A stretch of 64,000 nt of DNA from contig JAUJOD010000006.1 of assembly GCA_030447865.1 (NCBI GenBank), positions 1 to 64,000 of the forward strand. The letters run 5' to 3'. Position numbers and translations under genes: made by a program. Positions within the stretch are counted from its first letter, which is position 1. Each line of letters opens with the position of its first letter. The notes beneath the pieces are model-generated. The model had not been told where the DNA came from, did not search any database, and saw only the letters and a list, made by a program, of their open reading frames with translations. Positions 15,516 through 34,895 of this stretch are shown piece by piece. The DNA is from Nocardioidaceae bacterium (GTDB lineage: Bacteria; Actinomycetota; Actinomycetes; Propionibacteriales; Nocardioidaceae).

Positions 15516-16625
15516 GTGGCGTGGGTTGTGAAACGCGAAGGCACCCGAGGCACCACCTACAAGGGTGTCTACCGCGACCCCGACGGCATCCAGCGCTCGG
15601 TTGGCACCTTCCCTACCCGCCGGGCCGCCGAACGCGCCGCGAACCGCGAAGAGATCAAGGTCCGCGACGGCCAATGGCACGACGCGTCTTTGGGCCAGAT
15701 CACCTTCAAGACCTATGTCGACACCGTCTGGATGCCGTCCCGCCACATCGAAGCATCCACCAAAGCCGGCTACCAGTCCTACCTGAACAAGCAGTTCTTC
15801 CCGATCTTCGGCTCCAAGCAGATGGCCAAGATCCTGCCCTCCGACATCCAAGCCTGGGTCACTGGCGCCGCCGCCGACGGTCTCTCTGGGTCGAGTATCC
15901 GCAAGTACCACATGATGCTGCACTCAGTGTTTCGTCGGGCCGTCCGCGACCGCATCATCGTCTTCAACCCGTGCGAAGAGACCGAGCTCCCCAAGGTCAT
16001 CGCCAAACGCGCCCGCACCCTCACCCCTGATGAGTATCGGCGCCTCATCGACGCCATCCCCCCGGCGCACCGGCTGATCATCCAGACCGCCATCGAAACC
16101 GGCCTACGGTGGGGTGAGCTGATCGCCCTGCGCCCGAGGCATCTCGACTTCGGTGCCGGCACCCTCACCGTCTCCGAAACCATCGTCGAGGTCCCGCTCC
16201 GCGCCGCGCCGAACGGGCAACGGATGATCGTCAAGCCCTACCCCAAGGACAACGAAGCACGCACAATGGGGCTTCGGCCCGCGTTCCTCGACGCGCTCAC
16301 GGCGCACATCCGCGACCACCAGCTCGGCCGCGACGACCTGTTGTTCGCGACCCGCGACAAAACCCCAATCTCGCGCAACACATTCCGCACCCGGGTCTGG
16401 TTCCCCGCCATCAAAACCGCAGGCATCGACTTCAACGTCCGCATCCACGACCTGCGCCACGCCCACGCATCCTGGCTGCTGGCCGGCGGTGCCGACCTCA
16501 AATCAGTCATGGACCGGATGGGCCACACCCAAATCCAAACCACCCAGAAATACCTACACGCACTACCCGACGCCGACAGGCGCAACCTCGACGCCTTCAC
16601 CCGCATCGCCGACCCGCCGAGTTGA
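15516..16625 (+). CDS. int: Tyrosine site-specific recombinase (phage-type integrase)
   Basis: 369 aa, complete. The N-terminal arm domain (YKGVYRDPDGIQRSVGTFPT) is followed by a core-binding domain (about 61-155) and the catalytic domain with R198 (ETGLRWGEL), H311-x-x-R314 (HDLRHAHA), H337 (MGHTQIQ) and the nucleophile Y346 (TTQKYLHAL). GTG 15516 with CGGAGG 5 nt upstream. It starts next to the tRNA-Met fragment at 15303, as expected for an element that integrates at a tRNA 3' end. I find no matching att copy to its right in the window, so the right end is lost or outside. Confidence 0.92.
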   Translation: MAWVVKREGTRGTTYKGVYRDPDGIQRSVGTFPTRRAAERAANREEIKVRDGQWHDASLGQITFKTYVDTVWMPSRHIEASTKAGYQSYLNKQFFPIFGSKQMAKILPSDIQAWVTGAAADGLSGSSIRKYHMMLHSVFRRAVRDRIIVFNPCEETELPKVIAKRARTLTPDEYRRLIDAIPPAHRLIIQTAIETGLRWGELIALRPRHLDFGAGTLTVSETIVEVPLRAAPNGQRMIVKPYPKDNEARTMGLRPAFLDALTAHIRDHQLGRDDLLFATRDKTPISRNTFRTRVWFPAIKTAGIDFNVRIHDLRHAHASWLLAGGADLKSVMDRMGHTQIQTTQKYLHALPDADRRNLDAFTRIADPPS

Positions 16626-16834
16626 CGGCCTTGCACCACGGCACCAAGACTGAAACCGGTCTCGCGCCGTCAGAGACGACTTCCACCGCCAACGCGAAAA
16701 CGCCGCAACCAGCCGCTCAGCCGACAACTCCTCGCGCTCCCACAAGCACCCGTACGCAGTCCGACGACGCCACAGCTGAGGGGCCCGCGCTGACCCCCAC
16801 CAGCGTCATTGCGCCCACTAAGACCCAACAACAG

Positions 16835-17581
16835 CTACGGTGCAGTGTCGCCAAAGGCGCCCACCCGAGGTTCGATCGTGGACACGTAGTCGAGAACAGT
16901 GGGCAGTACGCCCCGGCTTCCACCTCGGGTCAGCCGGAGCGCGGCCTTGCGCTCAATCAGTTGATGAGTAACCCAACGTGTGTCGATACAACGGCTGAGC
17001 AGTTGCGCGTGCAGGAGCCAGTCCATCAACTGATCAACGAGCATGAGTCGGAGTCCGTACAAGTGGTAAGAGCTGCCTGAGTTGACGAGGAGACCCCCGC
17101 CAAGCCTCTTAGCAACAGTCCTGGCTACATCATCATTCTCCGGAGTGGCCGCCAACTTGAAGTCTAGAAGCGGAAGATGACGCGGGCCACGCAAAGTGCT
17201 GACCTCGCTGGTCATCACGAGCATTTCCCCTGCAGGAGTCTCCGCGGCCAACACCTCAAGCCGCCTCACGGTCACGTCTCTCAGTTCGATAACAAACCGC
17301 GCGGGCGCGTCGGAGAAGCGTTGATGGTAGTCCACCACCCGCAAAGCTTGTCCAAGATCGCCATGACCTTGTGCCGCCTCAAGAAACGCCTCAGTGAACG
17401 AATCACCAGACTGTCGTCCCGTTCTAGCTTCGTCGGCGTACGAACGGAGCGCCGGAGTGGCGCCCGGCCGATGTTCAACGGACGGCGGCACTCGGAGCCT
17501 GAGCAACTCGACCGCTAGCACGTCGGGGATCCCATGGACCAACCCGACGAGCGCTGCAGCGGCGCTAGTCGCGGGCGACAT
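16835..17581 (-). CDS. Primase-polymerase-like (AEP-type) small protein, partner of the patatin gene
   Basis: 248 aa. The C-terminal part resembles the catalytic core of archaeo-eukaryotic primases: LLDFK (D140, K142) as a variant of the hDhD motif, SGSSYHLYG with H173 as the sxH motif, then WVTHQLIERKAALRLTRG. Residues 1-110 are not recognised. The second metal acidic residue is a Lys, so polymerase activity is doubtful. The ATG at 17581 overlaps the patatin stop by 17 nt, so the two are co-translated. Assignment is from motifs by eye; the family may be a primase-derived nucleic-acid sensor. Confidence 0.5.
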   Translation of the reverse strand: MSPATSAAAALVGLVHGIPDVLAVELLRLRVPPSVEHRPGATPALRSYADEARTGRQSGDSFTEAFLEAAQGHGDLGQALRVVDYHQRFSDAPARFVIELRDVTVRRLEVLAAETPAGEMLVMTSEVSTLRGPRHLPLLDFKLAATPENDDVARTVAKRLGGGLLVNSGSSYHLYGLRLMLVDQLMDWLLHAQLLSRCIDTRWVTHQLIERKAALRLTRGGSRGVLPTVLDYVSTIEPRVGAFGDTAP

Positions 17582-19487
17582 CGCGGTCTCGGCCCCAATC
17601 GACGGGCCGAAGTGTGTGAGCATCCGCTTCAACCTTCCGGACATTTTGGTAGACGAAGCCTGGGTAGCGGTGCTTGGCGTCCCCTCTCACGCCAACCCTC
17701 ACACCAAGGTCCGACAGTCTTGCCACGCCCTTCGCTGGGGCAGGGTCAGTGACGTTCGAGACCACGGCGCACAAGACGCGATCCCTGCCCTCACGTTTGA
17801 GGATCAGCAAGCGGCTGAGTCCGTTGACGACCGTGCACCTGCCGTCTGGCCGCTCCTCGAGCACGATTGGTAGCGCAAAACTTTGCGCTCGTTCGCCGTA
17901 ACGGACGAAGTAGGGTGCGAATTCTTCCAAGCCGTGGGCGCGGAGCGTCCGAAGCATGGCTCGCTGCTGCGTCTGCTTGTAGACGTGGGCATACCTCGCC
18001 CAAGCATCGATCCTGTCGAGTTCCACGCTTCGAACCTCGATTGTCTGCCCAGTTGAATATTGTTTTACTGTTTGAAGCGACCTCGCTACCTCCTCGGCCG
18101 GCGCTTGCACGAGGGCGATGTCCGTGGGGCTTACAGCATCAGGTCTCCTCGTCAGCAGCTCACTAGTTATCAAGTTGATGGCGTCTTCGTCGCCATCAGC
18201 GCTCGTCAGTAGTCGCGCGTGTATTTCGAGGTCTGGCTTTGACGTGACCACCGCAACGGCGTCATACCGCGTGGGATCACAAATGAAAGCTTGAATCGGC
18301 GGCATCTCGCCAGGTGGCAGGTATGTGACAACGCACCCGAGGGCCTTCAGCGTTTCGCGTTGCTGCACCACCGCGCGAGAGGTTGACCTGTCTTCAGGCA
18401 AGACCACGGTAACGGGCACGGAACGCAATCGAGCGAGAAGGATGGCAGTATAAAGCTCGAACACCCAACGTGTATCTCGCGCGGAGATCACAATGTGCGA
18501 TTGAGCTCCGATGATGTGATTCGCGACGGTCGCTAGGGTTTGAGCCAGGTGGGTCGAAACCTGAGATGGTCGAACTGGTGTTGCCGAAACCACGCCTGCG
18601 TCGAAGAACTCGTCCACGGCACGCCGGCCTGCCTCAACGAGTTGCGAGACAACGCCAGGTGTCATGCGATGAAAATCTGTAGCCCTTACATCGCCACTCC
18701 GAATCGTGATGACATCAATGTCGTGCCGCAGGCCTAACTGAACGGCTGCGCCCCCGTGTGTGACAGTTCCAGCGAGTGCCAAGGCTGTTGACATGACATC
18801 TTTCGGGCGGTCCACCTGCTCCGTGTCCAGCAATGTGAATGCTAGGACTCGTCTGCGATCCGATTCGTCACTCTCGACAAGGTGTAGGGGTAGGTTGCTA
18901 ACCACACCGCCGTCGACGAATGGTCCGTGAGGTTGGAAGAAGAACGGAATTGAACAACTCGACCTGACCGCTTCGGACACCGAAAAGTGAGGGGTCCGTG
19001 AAGTACTCCAGACCGCTGCTTCCTGTAACTCCAGATTCGCCGAGATTACTCCTGCAGGTTTTGGTAGATCCCCGAACGTAATCTTCTTGCTCTTGACGTT
19101 GGGCAGTAGTTCGCGGAGCCGATCTTCAACCCAGGACTCGATCAGCTTCGCGTCATACATCCCGTTGAATCGCACGAGGTTCCAAGCCTGCGAGGCTCGG
19201 TTATCTGCTTTCAGTGAGAGACGTCGGCCTTTCGGCCTGGAAAGGAGGCTTGCGAAGTCAAGGTTCTTGAGCGTGCGCTCCAACCAATCCGGCGTTGCTC
19301 CTGCCGCAATAAGGACGGCAGCGATGGAGCCTGCTGATGCACCAGCAACCTCGTCAAAGTTAACGCCGCGGGCGACCGCCGCCGAGTAAGCGCCGGCGTA
19401 GGCGGCTGCCCGGCAGCCGCCGCCTTGGAAGATCCCGATGCAGTCTTCAAATTCGGGTGGGAGAGCCGCTGGTGGATGCATAATCAA
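17565..19487 (-). CDS. Patatin-like phospholipase with large C-terminal extension (ParB-like region)
   Basis: 640 aa. Residues about 15-210 are a patatin: oxyanion loop QGGGCRAAAY (21-30), nucleophile Ser51 in GASAGS and catalytic Asp192 in VDGGV. The middle (about 330-400) contains SHIVISARDTRWVFELYTAI and a Rossmann-like PVTVVLPED. The last 170 residues include FALPIVLEERPDGRCTVVNG then LSRLLILKREGRDRV, similar in pattern to ParB/sulfiredoxin-type domains. Patatins serve as membrane-degrading effectors in several anti-phage systems (for example CapV). It starts at ATG 19487. No cyclase or other CBASS gene is nearby, so activation would come from the C-terminal region or the primase-like partner (inference). 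Confidence 0.75.
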   Translation of the reverse strand: MIMHPPAALPPEFEDCIGIFQGGGCRAAAYAGAYSAAVARGVNFDEVAGASAGSIAAVLIAAGATPDWLERTLKNLDFASLLSRPKGRRLSLKADNRASQAWNLVRFNGMYDAKLIESWVEDRLRELLPNVKSKKITFGDLPKPAGVISANLELQEAAVWSTSRTPHFSVSEAVRSSCSIPFFFQPHGPFVDGGVVSNLPLHLVESDESDRRRVLAFTLLDTEQVDRPKDVMSTALALAGTVTHGGAAVQLGLRHDIDVITIRSGDVRATDFHRMTPGVVSQLVEAGRRAVDEFFDAGVVSATPVRPSQVSTHLAQTLATVANHIIGAQSHIVISARDTRWVFELYTAILLARLRSVPVTVVLPEDRSTSRAVVQQRETLKALGCVVTYLPPGEMPPIQAFICDPTRYDAVAVVTSKPDLEIHARLLTSADGDEDAINLITSELLTRRPDAVSPTDIALVQAPAEEVARSLQTVKQYSTGQTIEVRSVELDRIDAWARYAHVYKQTQQRAMLRTLRAHGLEEFAPYFVRYGERAQSFALPIVLEERPDGRCTVVNGLSRLLILKREGRDRVLCAVVSNVTDPAPAKGVARLSDLGVRVGVRGDAKHRYPGFVYQNVRKVEADAHTLRPVDWGRDRDVARD

Positions 19488-24992: not shown

Positions 24993-25681
24993 CCCTCCTT
25001 CATCTCACGTGAACCCTAGGCCGCGGCCCCGACACGCTTACCTGAACAGCGGTCGACGCAGCGGCCCGCCACGTTCTACCTGTCCAACGCTTCGTCGCGC
25101 AGCGCGGCGACGGCCGCAGCGACAGACGGCAACGCGGGAGCCGACAGCGGTACGTCGTCCAGATCGAAATCGTGCGGCTCCTTCCTGACTCGCTGGCCGG
25201 TCGGAGTGAGACTGCTCGTGACCACCGGGGTACGCCTCGCGACCAGGCGGAGTCTCACCGGGGCTGGCCACCATGAGGCCGAGCCGGCCAAGCACCAGGT
25301 GGGTGTTCCAGGCATCCCGCAGCTCCCGAACTTCCGAACCCGAGCGGCCATGCGGGGCCCAACGCCTGGGCAGCGCGTCGAACTACCTGCGTCAGACCAC
25401 CGCCTATGACTGCCAGCGGAGGGCATTTGGCGGATCCGTCCTGGGCGAACGACACACCCCGGAACCAACAGGGGCAATGTGCACTCCCCCGCTCAGGTGC
25501 GACCAGACCGTGAGGGGTAAGCGTCACCGGCCAACATTCAATAGGGAGCGTGCAAGGGAGGCGGCCGACCGTGTGGGCCGACACGTCCACAGGTCAGTCC
25601 CTGGGCCGGCCTGGCCTCCTCACCTGTGGTCACTCGAAGAAGCGCGGTACTGTCGGCGCAGGTGGCACCGGGGAGGCATCC
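24993..25681. other. Divergent intergenic region with decayed ORF and repeat copy B
   Basis: The minus strand between about 25390 and 25078 carries fragments that look coding in two frames (RELRDAWNTHLVLGRLGLMV, then LTPTGQRVRKEPHDFDLDDV to a stop at 25078), probably the corpse of a small regulatory gene. Repeat copy B follows at 25477-25548. Promoters of both flanking defence-type genes must lie here. Confidence 0.45.
25477..25548 (+). repeat. Degenerate direct repeat, copy B (IS110 left-end-like)
   Basis: Similar to 21901-21969 and in the same orientation. CACCGGCC at 25525-25532 and ATAGGGAGCGTGC resemble ACCGGCC...ATAGGAGCGTGG in the noncoding region upstream of the IS110 transposase (near 36975-37010). 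Confidence 0.5.
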
Positions 25682-27799
25682 GTGAGAGACGAACTTTCTG
25701 ACATCGAGGTCGGGATTCGCGCCCTCCCGCCGGCCGACCTTGCAAGACTCCGGCCCTACGTCGTGAACCTGAGTCAGGGGTCGTTCTCGAGCGACGGTCA
25801 ATACGCCTCCAGCGCAGCGGATGTCGACGCCATCTTCGACCTACACCTGCCTCGGTTTGTGGAGGCTGCGCAGCGCCCGGTCCCGCTCCTGATCTGGGCT
25901 CATGGTGGTCTGGTGAACGAGGAGTCCGGCCTGCGCATTGCGCAGGGACAGGTGGATTGGTGGTTGCGGAACGGCGTCTATCCCCTGCACTTCGTCTGGG
26001 AGAGCGGACTTATGGACGCCCTCGGTCAGGCACGAGGACCGCTCGCTGCGGGTCGGCGCGATCTGTGGGACCACACGACCGACCCCCTCCTTGAGGAGGC
26101 GATCCGGCCGCTGGGGCGACGAGCGTGGGCGTCTATGAAGTACAGCGCTCAGCGAGCCAGTGATCACGGTGGGGGCGCTCGATACCTCGCTCGACGGCTC
26201 AGCGAATTCTGTGCAGCTGACCCCCATGCGGTTGCGCTGCACGCTGTGGGACACAGCGCCGGTTCGATATTCCACGCGCACTTCCTCACCGCAGCACGTT
26301 CCGAAGGTGTCCCGAGCTTCGAGACACTGCAGTATCTAGCACCGGCCATCCGGGCCGACGAATTCAAGCGCTTGGTGGCGCCAGCAGTTGGGGAGTACGT
26401 TCAGGCGCTGACGATGTACACGATGCGACGGGAGCTGGAACGGGCGGACTCCTGCATGCAGGCATATCGCAAGTCGCTGCTCTACCTGATCAAGCACGCA
26501 CTGGAACCCGAGAGAGACACTCCGATCCTCGGGCTTGAGGACACGATCGTGGGGGATCCGGAGCTCAGTTCCTTCTTCGGTCTCCGCGGCGGCGGGGGAC
26601 GCCGGAGTGAAGCGGTCTGGTCGAGGACACATGCTGACGCGGCTCCGGGAAGTCGCAGCCAGGCAACGAGCCACGGCGGCTTCGACAACGACGCCTCCAC
26701 GATGGACAGCGTTGCGACGCGGGTCCTCCGTGGACGCAAGGCGACGCCCTTCCCGAGGGGCGCTGTCGATCAGGCGCGGCACCTCTACGAGGGCGTCGGC
26801 GGAAGTGGCGCAGCGGCGTCCCCCTCCCGGCCGTCAGCCGTCACCCCTCTTCCGGGTGGAGCCGGAACGCGTCGGGCGCTGTGCGTCGGCATCGACGACT
26901 ACCCCGCACCCCATGCACTTGCTGGTTGCAAGGCGGATGCCAGGGCGTGGTCGGCGATGCTGGGATCGCTGGGTTTCTCCGTCACTGAGTTGCTCGACGC
27001 AGACGCCACGCGGCAGGGAATCCTCGACGCGTTGGGAACTCTGGTGGCGGGGGCTTGTGCAGGCGATGTTGTCGTCCTCCAGTACTCGGGTCACGGCATG
27101 GAGGTCCCCGATTTCGTGGGTGATGAAGCGGGGGGCTCCAACGGTGACCGGGACGAGGCGATGTGTCCCGTCGACTTCGCTGATGGACAGTTGCTCATCG
27201 ACGATGATCTGCGGCAGGTCGCAGCGCAGCTGCCGGAGGAGTCCCTGCTGACGGTCTTCGCGGACTGCTGCCACTCCGGGACCCTTATGCGGGCGTTCGT
27301 TGACCTCCCGCGCTCGCCCAGCGTGCGAACCCTGGTGGATCTGCATGCCGACGTGCGTCCTCGGTACATGCGCCTGACTTCGGACTTAGCCGACGCCTTC
27401 CGCAAGGCGCGGAGTTCCCGAGGACGCGATGCTGCCAACGATGTCCCTCGTGCGCGTCCCGCAGTCCTGTTCTCTGCATGCCGCGACTACGAGGTGGCGT
27501 ACGAGCGTGATGGGCAGGGCGACTTCACCCGCCACTGCATGAGCGTTCTGTCCAAGGGCGTCTCCGGCCTGACCAACGCTGCATTCATGGACAGGGTGTT
27601 AAGAGAGTTCGGCGAAGGGAGCCAACAGAACCCAGAGCTAGATCTGGCAGATCTTTTCGGTCCCCAGCCCTTTCTCCAGACGGCGCAGGCGATCGCGGGC
27701 CGGGGCGCGGCCAATGGGATGGCTGGCGCCGAGGCGATCGCGCCGGGGGCGGGTCGCAGAGGCTCAGGTGCGGCGCAACTGTTGGGGGGACTCGGCTGA
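25682..27799 (+). CDS. Alpha/beta hydrolase-caspase (peptidase C14) fusion protein
   Basis: 705 aa from GTG 25682, preceded by GGGGAGG. The N-terminal half is an alpha/beta hydrolase: LLIWAHGGLVNEESGL (67-82), nucleophile Ser192 in AVGHSAGS, and SHGGFDNDASTMDSV (about 330-344), whose His is the likely catalytic base. A Ser/Pro/Gly linker (about 370-395) precedes a caspase-like domain: RRALCVGIDDYP (397-408), His471 in YSGHG and Cys530 in DCCHSG, both catalytic residues present. The tail lists ARPAVLFSACRDYEVAYE and FTRHCMSVL. Caspase-like proteases act as effectors in several bacterial defence systems. Cytoplasmic; no signal peptide. The fusion may couple lipid or ester hydrolysis with proteolysis (inference). 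Confidence 0.8.
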   Translation: MRDELSDIEVGIRALPPADLARLRPYVVNLSQGSFSSDGQYASSAADVDAIFDLHLPRFVEAAQRPVPLLIWAHGGLVNEESGLRIAQGQVDWWLRNGVYPLHFVWESGLMDALGQARGPLAAGRRDLWDHTTDPLLEEAIRPLGRRAWASMKYSAQRASDHGGGARYLARRLSEFCAADPHAVALHAVGHSAGSIFHAHFLTAARSEGVPSFETLQYLAPAIRADEFKRLVAPAVGEYVQALTMYTMRRELERADSCMQAYRKSLLYLIKHALEPERDTPILGLEDTIVGDPELSSFFGLRGGGGRRSEAVWSRTHADAAPGSRSQATSHGGFDNDASTMDSVATRVLRGRKATPFPRGAVDQARHLYEGVGGSGAAASPSRPSAVTPLPGGAGTRRALCVGIDDYPAPHALAGCKADARAWSAMLGSLGFSVTELLDADATRQGILDALGTLVAGACAGDVVVLQYSGHGMEVPDFVGDEAGGSNGDRDEAMCPVDFADGQLLIDDDLRQVAAQLPEESLLTVFADCCHSGTLMRAFVDLPRSPSVRTLVDLHADVRPRYMRLTSDLADAFRKARSSRGRDAANDVPRARPAVLFSACRDYEVAYERDGQGDFTRHCMSVLSKGVSGLTNAAFMDRVLREFGEGSQQNPELDLADLFGPQPFLQTAQAIAGRGAANGMAGAEAIAPGAGRRGSGAAQLLGGLG

Positions 27800-28350: not shown

Positions 28351-28409
28351 TGTCAACGGCGGCCGAAATCTGACCCCCTTTCGTCGGTTGAAAATTGACC
28401 CCCTTGGTT

Positions 28410-29222
28410 CTAGTTCTCTTCGGTGACGGCTGCGGGGACGCGGCCGAGTTCGCGGTTCTTCAGCCGGTAGGAATCGCCCTTGAGAGGGATGACCTCGGCG
28501 TGGTGGACGAGCCGGTCGATCATCGCGGCGGCAACGGTGTCGTCGCCGAACACCTCACCCCAGCGGGCGAAGTTCTTGTTGGAGGTGACGATCAGGGTGG
28601 CGCGCTCGTAGCGGGAGGAGACCAGCTGGAAGAACAGGTTCGCTGCCTCGGGTTCGAACGGGATGTAGCCGACCTCGTCGATGACCAGGACGGGGTAGCG
28701 CACTAGTCGGCGCAGTTCGTCTTGGAGCCTGCCAGTGTGGTGGGCTTCGGCCAGCCGGTCGACCCACTGGGATGCGGTGGCGAACAGCACCCGGTGTCCT
28801 GCTTGGCAGGCGCGGATGGCCAGCCCAGTGGCCAGATGGGTCTTGCCGGTGCCGGGTGGGCCGAGCAGGACGACGTTGTCCTTGGCGACGACGAAGTCCA
28901 GGGTGGCCAGGTGGGCGACGGTTTGGCGCTTGAGCCCACGGGCGTGGTCGTAGTCGAAGTCCTCCAGGCTCTTGCGGGCCGGGAACCGTGCGGCGCGGAT
29001 GCGCCCTTCGCCGCCGTGGGCCTCACGAGCGGCGACCTCGCGTTGCAGACAGGCGGCGAGGAACTCCTCGTGCGTCCAGGACTCCTCGCGGGCTCGTTCG
29101 GCGAGCCGGTCGATGGACTCCCGCAGCGTGGGTGCCTTCAACGCCCGGGTCAGGTACTCCAGTTCCGAACTCACATCGCGACCGGTCCTGGCCCTGGTGT
29201 CGGCATTGGTCCTGGTCGCCAT
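28410..29222 (-). CDS. istB: IS21 helper ATPase IstB
   Basis: 270 aa. DnaC/DnaA-like AAA+ ATPase: Walker A LLGPPGTGKTHLATGL, Walker B VLVIDEVGYIPF, sensor LIVTSNKNFARWGEVFGD, ending GDSYRLKNRELGRVP. IstB assembles on target DNA and licenses IstA. The ATG at 29222 overlaps the istA stop (ATGA), so the two are coupled. The longer upstream frame is antisense-like Arg-rich and was rejected. Intact. Confidence 0.95.
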   Translation of the reverse strand: MATRTNADTRARTGRDVSSELEYLTRALKAPTLRESIDRLAERAREESWTHEEFLAACLQREVAAREAHGGEGRIRAARFPARKSLEDFDYDHARGLKRQTVAHLATLDFVVAKDNVVLLGPPGTGKTHLATGLAIRACQAGHRVLFATASQWVDRLAEAHHTGRLQDELRRLVRYPVLVIDEVGYIPFEPEAANLFFQLVSSRYERATLIVTSNKNFARWGEVFGDDTVAAAMIDRLVHHAEVIPLKGDSYRLKNRELGRVPAAVTEEN

Positions 29223-30496
29223 CACCTGACTTCGCCGTTCACGGCGCCGCTCACCTCGGGGACCAGGCCGAGCGCGGTGTCGTAGGACCCGAGCGAGCGG
29301 ATCTCGACCTCCTCTCCGGTGACGGCATCCGGCACCGGTCGGAGCAGATCCGCTCGGCCGCGGCGCAGCACCTTGCCGGCCACGACGTGCTCGAAGTCGG
29401 TGATGGTCTGATGCTGGGCCCACACCCTGGCGTGGTCGGCGACCAGCGCGTTTTCGCAGGCCACCCACACCCGGTCCAGGTCGGCCTGGACCTCGATCCG
29501 GCGTCCGACCACGCCTGGGTGCACGGAGTAGTCGTTGGAATCGACGCGGACGTAGTGGTCCCGCGGCAATCGGGTCGAGCACCGCCAGCCGACCTGCGGC
29601 GCGACGGGCGGCAGCGGCAGCATCGCCGCCCGGTCCGCGGCGGCCCGGTCGCCGGGGGTGCAGCCCAGGACCCGCATCCGACGGGCGTTGGCCTTGACCA
29701 GGAACCCGCCCAGCTGGGTGTTGAAGTTCTCCGGGCCGGTGAAGGTACGACCGGGAAGGAAGGAGCGCTCGAGGTAGTCGTGGAACCGTTCGAGCATGCC
29801 CTTGGCTTCGGGATCGGCGGGCTTACAGATGACCACCTTCGCGCCCAGCACTCCGCGGAACGCCTGACAGGCCGTACTCAGCTCGGGCTGCCGGGCACGC
29901 CACCGGCCAACCGCGGATTCGCCGTCCCACACCAACACCTTCGGAACGCCAAGTAGCTGCTCCGACAGCAGCCGCCACCAGCCGGCATACAGGTCCTGCG
30001 CATCGCGTGAGGGGATCAGCAGGCCGCCGGCCCACCGCGAGTAGCCCGACACCGTGGTCATCACCGGCAGTCGCTTCGCGGACCGGATCTGCCCGAAGCC
30101 GACCGGGATCTCGATCGGTGGGAACCAGAAGTCGAACTGCGCCAGCTCGCCGGCCTCATACGTGGTCCGCGACGCCGGGTCCGGCGGCAGATAGGCCGGA
30201 CGCAGCTCGCGGACCCGTTCCTTAAACACCGTCATCCCGCGAGACCAACCAACCCGTTCAGCGATCACCGTCGCCGGCATCGTCGGCACCGCCCGCAGCT
30301 GCTCCCGGATCCGCGTTTCGAACTCATCGACCGTCGACCCAGACGGCGGCCGGGCATACCTCGGCGGCCCGTCAGACGCCAGCGCGGCTCGCACGGTGTT
30401 CCGCGAGACCCCCAACGTCCTGGCGATCATCTTGATCGGCAACCCCTCAGCCCGGTGCAACCTACGGATCTCCGCCCAGTCCTCCACTGACAACAC
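29222..30496 (-). CDS. istA: IS21 transposase IstA
   Basis: 424 aa. The N-terminal HTH (IRRLHRAEGLPIKMIARTLG, then SRNTVRAAL) is followed by an RNase H-fold DDE domain: AQFDFWFPP (first Asp), KVLVWDGESAVG (second Asp), then DPEAKGMLERFHDYLE (Glu). The C-terminal part binds the element ends. Overlaps istB by the usual 4 nt. All catalytic residues are present, so the element may be active. Confidence 0.95.
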   Translation of the reverse strand: MLSVEDWAEIRRLHRAEGLPIKMIARTLGVSRNTVRAALASDGPPRYARPPSGSTVDEFETRIREQLRAVPTMPATVIAERVGWSRGMTVFKERVRELRPAYLPPDPASRTTYEAGELAQFDFWFPPIEIPVGFGQIRSAKRLPVMTTVSGYSRWAGGLLIPSRDAQDLYAGWWRLLSEQLLGVPKVLVWDGESAVGRWRARQPELSTACQAFRGVLGAKVVICKPADPEAKGMLERFHDYLERSFLPGRTFTGPENFNTQLGGFLVKANARRMRVLGCTPGDRAAADRAAMLPLPPVAPQVGWRCSTRLPRDHYVRVDSNDYSVHPGVVGRRIEVQADLDRVWVACENALVADHARVWAQHQTITDFEHVVAGKVLRRGRADLLRPVPDAVTGEEVEIRSLGSYDTALGLVPEVSGAVNGEVR

Positions 30497-30679
30497 CCAC
30501 TTCCTCCTGACCTCGACATGAGGCCAGGCTCTCGGAAGGGGTCAGTTTTCGACCGTCGATACAGGGTCAGTTTTCAGGCGCCGCCGACAGGCGCTTCTGC
30601 GACGCATCCCAAACTGTCGGTGTCGTGAGGGACCCTGGTGCAGACCGAAAGCTGAGACACGCAGAACGGGGAGGACCCG

Positions 30680-30930
30680 ATGACGACAAACACGCACCGA
30701 GCGAGAGTGAGGCTTCTGGACTGTAGATGCGGGGCGGGACACACCTCTGTGTCCAGATTTCGCGTGGAGTTCCGCCGGAGCTGCGCTGCCCACCCGACCA
30801 ACCGCAGGGTTGGAGCCAGGGAGGCGGTGGATGCCCGGTTCGACCCGACCTTGCCGATCGGGTAGAGCGGGTGCTGCGCGACTCGCTCCAGGAGTGCAAG
30901 CGCCTTCGTTACGTGCCCGTCCATGCCTGA
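30680..30930 (+). pseudogene. Small Cys-containing protein upstream of the HEPN gene, apparent frameshift
   Basis: ATG 30680 has an excellent Shine-Dalgarno (GGGGAGGA) and begins MTTNTHRARVRLLDCRCG, but the frame goes out at an ACAC repeat near 30740. The next frame continues with a well-formed LCVQISRGVPPELRC, DLADRVERVLRDSLQECKR and ends YVPVHA at 30930, 8 nt past the HEPN start. I read this as one about 82-aa gene with a 2-nt expansion. If the indel is real, only the 67-aa frame from 30727 is left. Cysteines suggest metal binding. Function unknown. Confidence 0.5.
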
Positions 30931-31444
30931 GGTACCTGAGCCTGAGTTCCGTCTGCCAGCCGACTCGCGCATGGCGCAGATGATCGCCGGTTTCGACGCT
31001 GGTGGGCATCCCGTTCCCATGACCCCTACCTGCCTCGAGCAGCTAGCGGCGAGTTGGCCGACATCAAGTGGGACGCCTACGGAGATCGCTGAGCTACTGC
31101 GTATCAGCCGACGGTTGTTCGCTCACAGCTTCTTCGTGTATGAGTTCATGGCCGTCGCGGCGCTGTGGTCATTTCTGGCACTGGAGGCGGCGCTCCGCGC
31201 TTGCCTTCAGAGTCACGCACCCTTCGCCAAGTTGATCGACCAAGCTTGTGAGCAAGGGCGGGTAGGACCGGGCGTCGGCGAGCTCCTCCACGCTGCACGC
31301 GAGTTGCGGAACGGATTCGCACATCCGTCGACGCAGGCTGCCTGGACCGTTGGCATGGCCGCCCCGACTGTTGAGGCGTCTCACCGCGTCATCGCGGATC
31401 TGTTCCCCGAGAAGGAAGGGACGACTGAGCACGACGGGGCGTGA
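30923..31444 (+). CDS. HEPN-domain protein (RNase-like), unknown family
   Basis: 173 aa, mostly helical. RELRNGFAHPS contains the R-x4-H motif (RNGFAH) of HEPN ribonucleases, in the usual position after two long helices (FFVYEFMAVAALWSFLALEA and VGELLHAAREL). HEPN proteins are RNA-cleaving effectors of toxin-antitoxin, abortive infection and CRISPR systems. The ATG overlaps the end of the upstream small gene by 8 nt. No MNT or other antitoxin of a known type is next to it, so the upstream small Cys protein could be the partner (inference). Confidence 0.6.
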   Translation: MPEVPEPEFRLPADSRMAQMIAGFDAGGHPVPMTPTCLEQLAASWPTSSGTPTEIAELLRISRRLFAHSFFVYEFMAVAALWSFLALEAALRACLQSHAPFAKLIDQACEQGRVGPGVGELLHAARELRNGFAHPSTQAAWTVGMAAPTVEASHRVIADLFPEKEGTTEHDGA

Positions 31445-31496: not shown

Positions 31497-31817
31497 CTAG
31501 CCGCGAGACACCTCTTGTAGGTGCTTCCGCCACGCGCGGTTCGTGTTGAATCGACTCTTCATCCACCCGCATGAGCAGCCCACCTGCGTCGACCCGATGA
31601 CAGTAACCACGTCGGGAAGTCTTTGGTGTTGCACCTGCGAGGGGCTTGCCGGATTTGGTCCGGGGTGGGCGGGCGGAGCGTAGAACGGTCGAGCACCTTG
31701 ACCGGTCAGGATCGCATGTAGCAATCGGTTCGTCTCTTGCTGTGCCGCTAGCTGCGCCCCTGCGATCTCGGCCAGTTGCCGTAGCCGCAGCTCCTGTGGG
31801 TTCTCGGGAGCGGTCAT
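31497..31817 (-). CDS. Small protein with C-terminal CxC motif, third gene of the TIR operon
   Basis: 106 aa from ATG 31817, which overlaps the stop of the membrane protein gene (ATGA). N-terminal helix RLRQLAEIAGAQLAAQQETN, a Pro-rich linker, then VGCSCGWMKSRFNTNRAWRKH, a short CxC...H region that could bind zinc. The same helix-linker-CxC design occurs in small actinobacterial proteins of unknown role. Because all three genes overlap, it is likely part of one complex with the TIR protein. Confidence 0.65.
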   Translation of the reverse strand: MTAPENPQELRLRQLAEIAGAQLAAQQETNRLLHAILTGQGARPFYAPPAHPGPNPASPSQVQHQRLPDVVTVIGSTQVGCSCGWMKSRFNTNRAWRKHLQEVSRG

Positions 31818-32620
31818 GTCGGTCCCTCCGGTAACAATTGCTGTTCCAGTTCGTGCTGCTTGCGCTCCCACTCGGCGTTCTCACGTTCTAAACGCCTCCG
31901 GTGCGCCTTCCTCCTCTCAACGATCACCGACAGAGGCTGGGTAAGTGCACTGGCCTGGGTCTTGAGCGACTTCTCGATCTCTCGCAACGACTTTCCGATG
32001 TGATGGAGCCCGTACGTCTCGGTGAACAGAACGCCGGACATCAGATCAAGGTCGAGAGTGCTCTCTTCCTCCCAGTGGTGATCGTGACCATCGTGGTACT
32101 TCACCTTGACTCGGTGACGTGAGGGCAACTTGGGGTCCGCGTGGCGCTCGATGGCGGAGTCGAAGAACATCCGCTGTCGGAAACCAGGGGGAAGCATCTC
32201 GATCGGCTCGGTGAACACCCGGGCCTTGTGGAGGGGATACTGCACATCGTCCCGGGCGCGCTTTAGGGGCGGATCAACGGTGATCGTCACATCGCGAGCG
32301 GGTCCGGCACCGATGTTGGAGAGCACGATGTCGAGCAGGTGGGAGGAGGTCTCGCCGCGCTCGGCGGTCAAGAGCACATACGGCCTGGCGCGGTCGAGGC
32401 GGGCATCTTCCGACTGCTTCGCGTGGGCGACGCGCGTCCGTTCGGCTTCCTTGGCTTGTTCTCGCCGAAGCGTCTCACCCTGCGCGTACTGACGAGCGGC
32501 GATCATCGCCGCGACCCCAGCGATGATAAGCGCACCGGCCGTGGACAGCACCCCCACTACGTTCCACTGAAGTTCGGTTAGCCCCCAAACCTGCTGCTCC
32601 GCTGGCGCAGCGGCAATCAT
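31814..32620 (-). CDS. Membrane-anchored coiled-coil protein, second gene of the TIR operon
   Basis: 268 aa. One N-terminal transmembrane helix (residues about 19-42, NVVGVLSTAGALIIAGVAAM), then a charged coiled coil (GETLRREQAKEAERTR), a beta-rich middle (RPYVLLTAERGETSSHLLDI, VLSNIGAGPARDVTITVDPP) and a C-terminal coiled coil (RRKAHRRRLERENAEWERKQ). It is predicted to face the cytoplasm and could hold the TIR protein at the membrane. ATG 32620 overlaps the TIR stop and its own stop overlaps the next ATG. No family recognised beyond this layout. Confidence 0.7.
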   Translation of the reverse strand: MIAAAPAEQQVWGLTELQWNVVGVLSTAGALIIAGVAAMIAARQYAQGETLRREQAKEAERTRVAHAKQSEDARLDRARPYVLLTAERGETSSHLLDIVLSNIGAGPARDVTITVDPPLKRARDDVQYPLHKARVFTEPIEMLPPGFRQRMFFDSAIERHADPKLPSRHRVKVKYHDGHDHHWEEESTLDLDLMSGVLFTETYGLHHIGKSLREIEKSLKTQASALTQPLSVIVERRKAHRRRLERENAEWERKQHELEQQLLPEGPT

Positions 32621-33408
32621 GATGCATCCTCGTCGCCGCCGTGGACCACACCGGCGATCTCCTCCGCGATCTCAACCACGGTGTGTGTCGCGGTACTCCG
32701 AGCGAGTTTGTCGGCGAGACTCGGACTGTGGGCGGTGATCTGATCCTTCGTGACGTTGTGCCAGATCGGAAGCAGGTTCTGTTCGCCCGCAACCGTCTTG
32801 GTCACGATCCCGTCAAGCTCGTACTGGGTCCATCCCTTGGCCAAGAAGTCCGCCGAGAAGATGACCGCCGCGAATCTGCTTCCCCTGATGCCTTGGTCGA
32901 TCTTCCGGCGGAGACTGTCCCCGATCTTCATTTCAATATCATCCAGCCACACGGACACGTCTCGCTCCTCAAGTGCCGCTGCGAGAGGCTGGGCGACAGA
33001 CTCAAGGTCCTCACTGGCGTGCGAGATGAACACGTCCCACGTACGTCCACCTAGAACGTCGGGTGCGGGTGGGTCGTCCGGTACGTCGTGGAGGATGGAC
33101 GACAAGGCGCCTGGGTTGCGCATCGGAGGCAACGACCCGCGTGGCGGAGGCTCCACTCCGACACTGGCGTTGATCCTCCCCGGGTAGCCCCCGAGGTCGA
33201 TGGCAACAAACCAATGACCATCCCTCGGTACGGTAAGCCGTGCCGGCGACCGCCTGGCCTCGCCTCCCAGGTATTGGCACCGCTCCCGGCGTGCGTACCT
33301 CCGATAGTTCGAGGCGTCCATCAGAAGCACGTTCGCCCTGTTGCGAAGGGTCACCACCACGACCGATCCGCGCTTGAGGTTACCCAAGTCCCACTTCACG
33401 TGCTCCAC
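32617..33408 (-). CDS. DUF1883-TIR domain protein
   Basis: 263 aa. Residues about 2-85 match DUF1883 (VKWDLGNLKRGSVVVVTLRN to DLGGYPGRINASVGV). Residues about 124-240 are a TIR domain: TWDVFISHASED, VSVWLDDIEMKIGDSL, AAVIFSADFLAKGW, with Glu197 in QYELDG as the predicted NADase catalytic Glu. I chose GTG 33408 because GGAGG lies 6 nt upstream and DUF1883 begins there; GTG 33474 and ATG 33450 lack a ribosome site. TIR NADases kill or stall infected cells in several anti-phage systems. First gene of a three-gene operon with two 4-nt overlaps. Confidence 0.85.
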   Translation of the reverse strand: MEHVKWDLGNLKRGSVVVVTLRNRANVLLMDASNYRRYARRERCQYLGGEARRSPARLTVPRDGHWFVAIDLGGYPGRINASVGVEPPPRGSLPPMRNPGALSSILHDVPDDPPAPDVLGGRTWDVFISHASEDLESVAQPLAAALEERDVSVWLDDIEMKIGDSLRRKIDQGIRGSRFAAVIFSADFLAKGWTQYELDGIVTKTVAGEQNLLPIWHNVTKDQITAHSPSLADKLARSTATHTVVEIAEEIAGVVHGGDEDAS

Positions 33409-33570
33409 TTGCCGCCTCCGAGGTTCCCTTTTTCGTTGGCCACTGGACATGACAGTAGTGACGGCGACCGACACATCTGCCGAAGTGATCGAGATGCCGT
33501 CGATGTCGGAGGTCCGAGCGACAATGCAGGCAGGCCAAGCCCAGGGTGGTGGTGGATGAGGGCGTCACCA

Positions 33571-34895
33571 CGTGATTCGGTGGCAGCACTTTAGGCGGTG
33601 AGTGCTGGGGGTGTCATCGCCTCGGTTTCGTGGTCGGTGGTGGTGGCGTCGAGGAGGGTCATGCGGGAGCGGGCGAGGACGTCGAGGCTCAGGTAGCGGC
33701 GGCCTTCAATCCATTCGTCGTGTTGTTCGGCCAGGACGGCTCCAACGAGGCGGACCAGGGCGGTGCGGTCGGGGAAGATGCCGACGACGTCGGTTCGTCT
33801 GCGGATCTCTCGGTTGAGACGCTCGGCGGGGTTGTTGGACCAGATCTGCCGCCAGAGCTCTTTCGGGAACGCGGTGAACGCGAGGATGTCGGTCCGGGCT
33901 TGCTCGAGATGCTCAGCAACGGCGGGGAGCTTGGCGGTGAGCCCGTCGACGACCCGGTCGAACTGGGCGTGCACGGCGGCGGCGTCTGGCTGGTCATAGA
34001 TCGAGTGCAGCATCGCCTTGACCCAGCCCCAGCTGGACTTGGGTGTCACGGCCATCAGGTTGGCGGCGTAGTGGGTGCGGCAGCGCTGCCAGGACGCGCC
34101 GGGCAGGGTGGCGCCGATGGCGCCGACCAGGCCGCTGTGGGCGTCGGCGGTCACTAGCGCCACTCCGGACAACCCACGGTGGGTCAGGCCGCGGAAGAAC
34201 GCCAACCAGCCGGCGCCGTCTTCGGCGCTGGTGACGTCCAGGCCGAGGATCTCCCGGTGCCCGTCGACGTTGACGCCGGTCGCGACCAGGGCGTGCACAT
34301 TCACCACCCGGCCGCCTTCGCGGACCTTCATCGTCAACGCATCAGCGGCGACGAAGGTGTAGGGGCCGGCGTCGAGTGGCCGGGTGCGGAACGACTCCAC
34401 CTGCTCATCGAGCTCCTTGGCCATCACCGACACCTGCGACTTCGACAACCGGGTGATGCCGAGGGTCTCCACCAGCTTCTCCATCCGCCGGGTCGACACC
34501 CCCAGCAGGTAGCAGGTGGCCACCACCGTAGTCAGCGCCCGCTCCGCCCGGCGGCGGCGTTCCAACAACCAGTCCGGGAAGTACGACCCTGCCCGTAGCT
34601 TCGGGATCGCAACCTCAACCGTGCCGGCCCCGGGTGTCCCACTCCCGACCCCGGTAACCATTGCGAGAGTTGACCCGCTCCTGGCTACGAAGCCCATAAG
34701 GGGCGCCACAGATCGCATCGGCCTCCGCGCCCATCAACGCCTCGGCGAATGTCTTCAGCATCGAGCGCAAAAGATCCGGCTCGGCGCGCTCAAGGTGCTC
34801 ACAGATGAAGGTGGACAGGTCAATACTGTTGGGGTTGGCGGTCATCGTGACGATCTCCTTCAGTTCGACTTTCAGCGGTCTTCTGAAGAATCACG
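33571..34895 (-). mobile_element. IS256-family insertion sequence, frameshifted transposase
   Basis: About 1.3 kb. The ends share CGTGATTC (33571-33578 and, inverted, 34888-34895) with further partial matches, consistent with terminal inverted repeats. The boundaries are approximate and I found no target duplication. Confidence 0.65.
33591..34845 (-). pseudogene. IS256-family transposase (Mutator-like), single-base frameshift
   Basis: The N-terminal frame (34845-34615) reads LRSMLKTFAEALMGAEADAI then RVNSRNGYRGREWDTR and stops. The rest (about 34640-33591) continues VEVAIPKLRAGSYFPDWLLE, FVAADALTMKVREGG, VTADAHSGL and AERLNREIRRRTDVVGIFP, covering the DDE residues. One extra G in the run at 34628-34634 breaks the frame. 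Restoring it gives a typical transposase of about 415 aa. As written the element cannot move itself. Confidence 0.85.

Follow-up and report, generated by a model that had tools for sequence, protein, structure and literature searches.

We consider it probable that the first of three overlapping genes in a 64,000-nucleotide stretch of Nocardioidaceae DNA (hereafter the window) is a stand-alone NADase defence gene of the DUF1883-TIR type, that the two genes behind it are downstream cargo, and that the three do not constitute a conserved system. An earlier note on this DNA had put the trio forward as a three-gene system, which is improbable because genes 2 and 3 are not partners of DUF1883-TIR in any other genome examined. 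The outcome is that a candidate three-gene system is removed and its core gene is placed in a widespread TIR family.

Organization of the three genes

An ORF check confirms the three minus-strand genes listed in Table 1 as the earlier note had placed them, together with the 4-nt ATGA overlap at each of their two junctions. Each gene is preceded by a good Shine-Dalgarno-like site (GGAGG for genes 1 and 3, GAGGA for gene 2), and the tight coupling that had been claimed is therefore upheld. The trio is single-copy in its host genome. Consecutive overlaps between genes with ribosome sites represent tight coupling and are often a sign of functional partners, and this arrangement has to be counted against a stand-alone reading of gene 1. 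The GTG at position 33408 is taken as the right start of gene 1, as it lines up with Met1 of homologues in the alignment and has GGAGG six bases upstream; a second GTG in the same frame, at 33474, is the less probable start. Genes 1 and 2 are real genes because both have homologues, distant ones in the case of gene 2. The case for gene 3 consists of its reading frame, its ribosome site and its overlap, and its GC content by codon position (0.68/0.51/0.69) is only weakly coding-like.

Insertion sequences flank the trio on both sides. The last 58 bp of the IS256 element (33533-33590) are found at three further places in the genome, and this end lies about 125 bp upstream of the start of the TIR gene. 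The transposase of this element is read from two minus-strand frames (34615-34845 and 33591-34718) that are split by a frameshift near position 34631, and this copy is therefore probably inactive. A weak promoter-like match (33617-33588) is located inside the IS256 element just upstream of gene 1.

Table 1. Positions of the three genes, the domains of gene 1 and the flanking features in the window.
Feature	Position	Strand	Description
Gene 1 (DUF1883-TIR)	32617..33408	-	263 aa, GTG start; DUF1883 residues 1-88, TIR residues 123-255, Trp193/Glu197 WxxxE
DUF1883 beta-sandwich domain of gene 1	33145..33405	-	Relative of solved Atu1913 (2b1y)
TIR domain of gene 1	32644..33042	-	Residues 123-255; nearest solved: AbTir, BtTir, BtpA/TcpB, PdTIR
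Gene 2	31814..32620	-	268 aa, predicted single-pass membrane protein; ATGA overlap with the TIR gene
Gene 3	31497..31817	-	106 aa, orphan, Cys81-x-Cys83; ATGA overlap with gene 2
DUF4145-like gene	30923..31444	+	Weak match below the Pfam cut-off; convergent, outside the operon
IS21-family element	28357..30583	-	istA, istB, terminal repeats; flanks the trio downstream
IS256/Mutator-family element	33533..34845	-	Flanks the trio upstream

Gene 1 encodes a DUF1883-TIR protein with a conserved active site

The two domains of gene 1 are recognized by Pfam as DUF1883 (PF08980, E=4.9e-26) and TIR_2 (E=8e-20), a combination that is a recognized prokaryotic TIR architecture (PMC9153377 Fig. 1). A sequence search also matches the DUF1883 domain to the solved structure 2b1y (E=2.4e-21). 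By both sequence and model comparison the entire TIR domain is 43-48% identical to AbTir, BtTir, BtpA/TcpB and PdTIR, although the aligned solved chains of these proteins, unlike gene 1, have no DUF1883 domain. The same solved TIR domains were retrieved with an AlphaFold model that drew on 49 sequences (mean pLDDT 78.6, pTM 0.54). The active-site Trp and Glu of the solved proteins are aligned with Trp193 and Glu197, which lie in a WxxxE motif that lines up with that of AbTir and are invariant across 49 relatives of gene 1, so that the TIR Glu pointed out in the earlier note is indeed present. Within its own family (PHROG 9211) gene 1 shares both domains, full length, 50-64% identity and an identical WxxxE motif. 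Of the 77 alignment columns with strong conservation, just 4 are changed in the protein, which is within the range of its relatives and leaves the active site intact. In a tree of 58 rows, no end branch is longer than that of the window's TIR protein (0.52 versus a median of 0.12), and this also counts against a stand-alone reading since it could reflect a changed partner.

AbTir and AaTir are known to produce 2'cADPR and 3'cADPR (PMC11364022, PMC13232231). On the basis of these products, and of the 43-48% identity of its TIR domain to TIRs that consume NAD+, cleavage of NAD+ by the gene 1 product is likely, and cyclization to a cyclic ADPR isomer is possible.

DUF1883-TIR genes at other loci examined are not accompanied by genes 2 and 3

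Relatives of the DUF1883-TIR protein occur in many phyla, with the best reaching 64% identity over full length. A pattern scan of GTDB genomes gave 478 loci encoding such relatives, the best 80 of which were kept, while plasmids gave 378 records that match gene 1 at E values up to 1e-5, many possibly via the TIR domain alone; in 113 records the match extends across 80% or more of the query. Per genome the Pfam DUF1883 domain is uncommon (5 of 397 in a phylum sample), and in an order sample the TIR profile matched 25 of 397 genomes, about eight of them over full length.

Gene 2 was sought near these loci with a profile made from ten relatives and run on six-frame translations, which recovered every known relative. 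With flanks of up to 6 kb, gene 2 is adjacent to DUF1883-TIR in none of the best 80 of the 478 GTDB loci, the sole nearby match, in a Nocardioides sp. (L061), being on the opposite strand at a distance of 3.2 kb. Neither gene 2 nor gene 3 adjoins the other full-length DUF1883-TIR loci from the 397 same-order genomes, which provided seven further loci with flanks of about 5-6 kb, three of them coinciding with GTDB loci already counted. Inspected plasmids of Gordonia, Rhodococcus, Arthrobacter and E. coli likewise carry DUF1883-TIR without genes 2 and 3 nearby. In all of about 90 other loci (the best 80 from GTDB plus about ten from plasmids or the order level) the TIR gene lacks both of these neighbours, which is the observation that the earlier note had named as refuting its three-gene system. 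The reverse search gave a similar picture, as none of about 40 loci with gene-2 relatives in genomes of the class has DUF1883-TIR beside them (flank mostly 1.5 kb). Gene-2 relatives are common without the TIR gene, gene 3 has no credible relative, and among everything examined the trio is unique to its host genome.

The neighbours of DUF1883-TIR vary and include integrases, restriction enzymes and MADS, PARIS-like and ThsB genes. The E. coli plasmid pKPC-b33e (L016) carries two TIR genes, DUF1883-TIR and a divergent one, next to a Tn3-family transposase and blaKPC-2.

A recurrent DUF2188 neighbour

Unlike the trio, the combination of a DUF2188 gene with DUF1883-TIR is a recurrent, conserved pair. 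The DUF2188 gene (PF09954, E=4e-24) ends 7 bp before the DUF1883-TIR start in at least seven actinomycete genomes, namely those of Klenkia, Blastococcus, two Gordonia and three Nocardioidaceae, two of which are Nocardioides by name (L013, L047, L056, L060, L061, L102 and L227), and the TIR proteins of these pairs cluster in the tree. DUF2188 is a better partner candidate for DUF1883-TIR than genes 2 and 3, and its product could act on the TIR protein as a regulator or an antitoxin. No DUF2188 remnant was seen by eye upstream of the window's TIR gene. In L060 and L102 the reading frame of the TIR gene appears to be disrupted. Two additional loci (L208 and L207) are arranged in a related way and contain another TIR together with a partial DUF1883.

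Properties of genes 2 and 3

The gene 2 product has a single hydrophobic helix near its N-terminus (approximately residues 21-42), so the membrane anchoring ascribed to it earlier is a fair prediction. Basic residues follow this helix, which suggests that the bulk of the protein is probably cytosolic. A low-confidence model continues with a long helix, a beta-sandwich at approximately residues 82-190 and C-terminal helices. The sandwich in this model resembles peptide-binding adaptin ears, a likeness that is a hint at most because the model is poor (mean pLDDT 57.5, built on two sequences). Solved structures gave coiled-coil and other chance-level matches only, and Pfam gave no match and hence no macro or SLOG domain. 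Within the class, members of the gene-2 family are known from 19 genera (46 of 395 genomes). Many species of one genus (g38) have about one copy per genome, with sporadic copies elsewhere, and two relatives are near MobF-like relaxases (L011 and L030). Searches of viral contigs and phages did not find gene 2, although it does have PHROG matches (phrog_9607, 4e-9). The gene 2 product could tether or tune the TIR protein, an idea for which support is confined to this locus.

Gene 3 has no match in Pfam, NCBIfam or PHROGs, a chance-level match in PADLOC and no homologues by tblastn of plasmids and phages. Apparent matches in 199 related genomes were rejected as low-complexity or wrong-frame chance matches. 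Matches directly upstream of Streptomyces TIR genes were also rejected, since they look like translated tRNA sequence. The CxC motif noticed earlier is present, while the zinc binding suggested for it is weak, given that Cys81 and Cys83 are the only cysteines and are accompanied by scattered His residues.

Probable function of gene 1 and alternative readings

The reading that we favour is that gene 1 is most likely an abortive-infection defence gene on mobile DNA that would act by cleaving NAD+. The DUF1883 beta-sandwich at its N-terminus would detect a cue of infection, upon which, by analogy to close relatives, the TIR domains would associate head to tail, the Trp193/Glu197 site would cleave NAD+ to ADPR or possibly to a cyclic ADPR isomer, and the cell would stop growing. 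Genes 2 and 3 would be co-transcribed cargo gained downstream in the host lineage between the two IS elements, with the gene 2 product presumably sitting in the membrane and its beta-sandwich in the cytosol. The model with the best support is single-gene TIR defence of the kind demonstrated for SpbK, where an N-terminal domain recognizes a phage structure, TIRs cluster and NAD+ is depleted (PMC12847820). Like SpbK, gene 1 combines a putative N-terminal sensor with a C-terminal TIR in one gene on a mobile element, but the SpbK sensor is a four-helix bundle that binds the phage portal YonE (PMC12847820) rather than a DUF1883 domain.

It is unlikely that the trio is instead a lineage-specific system in which gene 2 binds the TIR protein or holds it inactive at the membrane, gene 3 is a small regulator and infection frees the TIR protein to cluster and to cleave NAD+. 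The two ATGA overlaps with their ribosome sites, the membrane helix and tentatively modelled adaptin-ear-like sandwich of gene 2 and the long TIR branch all argue for such a system; against it, no second example is present in about 90 DUF1883-TIR loci, the gene-2 family occurs elsewhere without DUF1883-TIR and gene 3 is an orphan. We regard as decidedly unlikely the specific case that DUF1883-TIR in the host lineage has gained gene 2 as a dedicated membrane partner and gene 3 as a small regulator, yielding a membrane-anchored TIR NADase under a beta-sandwich adaptor. If true, TIR would here be controlled in a way that the literature consulted does not describe.

There is also a slim chance that the trio is mobile-element cargo that has decayed and now serves no function, as might be suggested by the IS21 and broken IS256 elements on its flanks, the orphan status of gene 3 and the long TIR branch. 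However, all three frames are intact and gene 1 retains its active site, with a number of changes in conserved columns that is ordinary for its relatives.

As the earlier note had supposed, the trio matches no named defence system in PADLOC or NCBIfam. The TIR domain of gene 1 does match ThsB models of Thoeris (ThsB + ThsA), but the PADLOC ThsB1 model PDLC00417 covers only the TIR part (123-254) and not the full length, and the NCBIfam Thoeris type III model scores far below its cut-off. No ThsA (SIR2-SLOG or TM-macro) is beside the TIR gene, as genes 2 and 3 and the DUF4145-like gene have no such domain according to Pfam and PADLOC. The TIR part also matches the PADLOC candidate PDC-S66 (6.6e-60), a match limited to the TIR part of that model (148-280 of 282), the N-terminal part of which does not match DUF1883. 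A Thoeris-like pair, in which gene 2 would be the membrane effector for a cyclic ADPR signal made by the TIR, in the manner of TIR and TM-macro Thoeris, is highly improbable: the kinship of gene 1 to 2'/3'cADPR makers, the ThsB1 match and the predicted membrane location of gene 2 are in its favour, but gene 2 has no macro, SLOG or any other Pfam match, its family is usually not next to TIR, and the TM effector that is known uses a macro domain for ligand binding (PMC11204291).

The DUF1883-TIR family appears to be unstudied as such. A test of DUF1883-TIR defence was not found in the literature naming DUF1883 that was consulted, and the literature searched yielded no enzymatic assay and no phage assay of such a protein. 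Because members of the family occur across many phyla and on enteric resistance plasmids, one assay of the lone gene would inform hundreds of genomes.

Wider genomic surroundings

Beyond the IS21 element is a gene for a 749-aa protein (25550-27799, plus strand) in which residues 441-699 are a C14 caspase domain and the N-terminal part, for which Pfam gives no match, reads as alpha/beta hydrolase-like; an oddly long (96 nt) tRNA-Val prediction (25318-25413) lies just before it. This gene was set aside as a Thoeris-like partner of gene 1, since it is convergent, is separated by the IS21 element and has the caspase as its sole identified domain. Further away, positions 15516-19487 contain a tyrosine integrase, an AEP-like primase gene (16835-17644) and a patatin gene (17565-19487) that has an iHKD match and matches PADLOC phospholipase effectors, and this segment is possibly a separate conflict module. 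The wider region is consistent with mobile DNA that carries a number of possible conflict genes.
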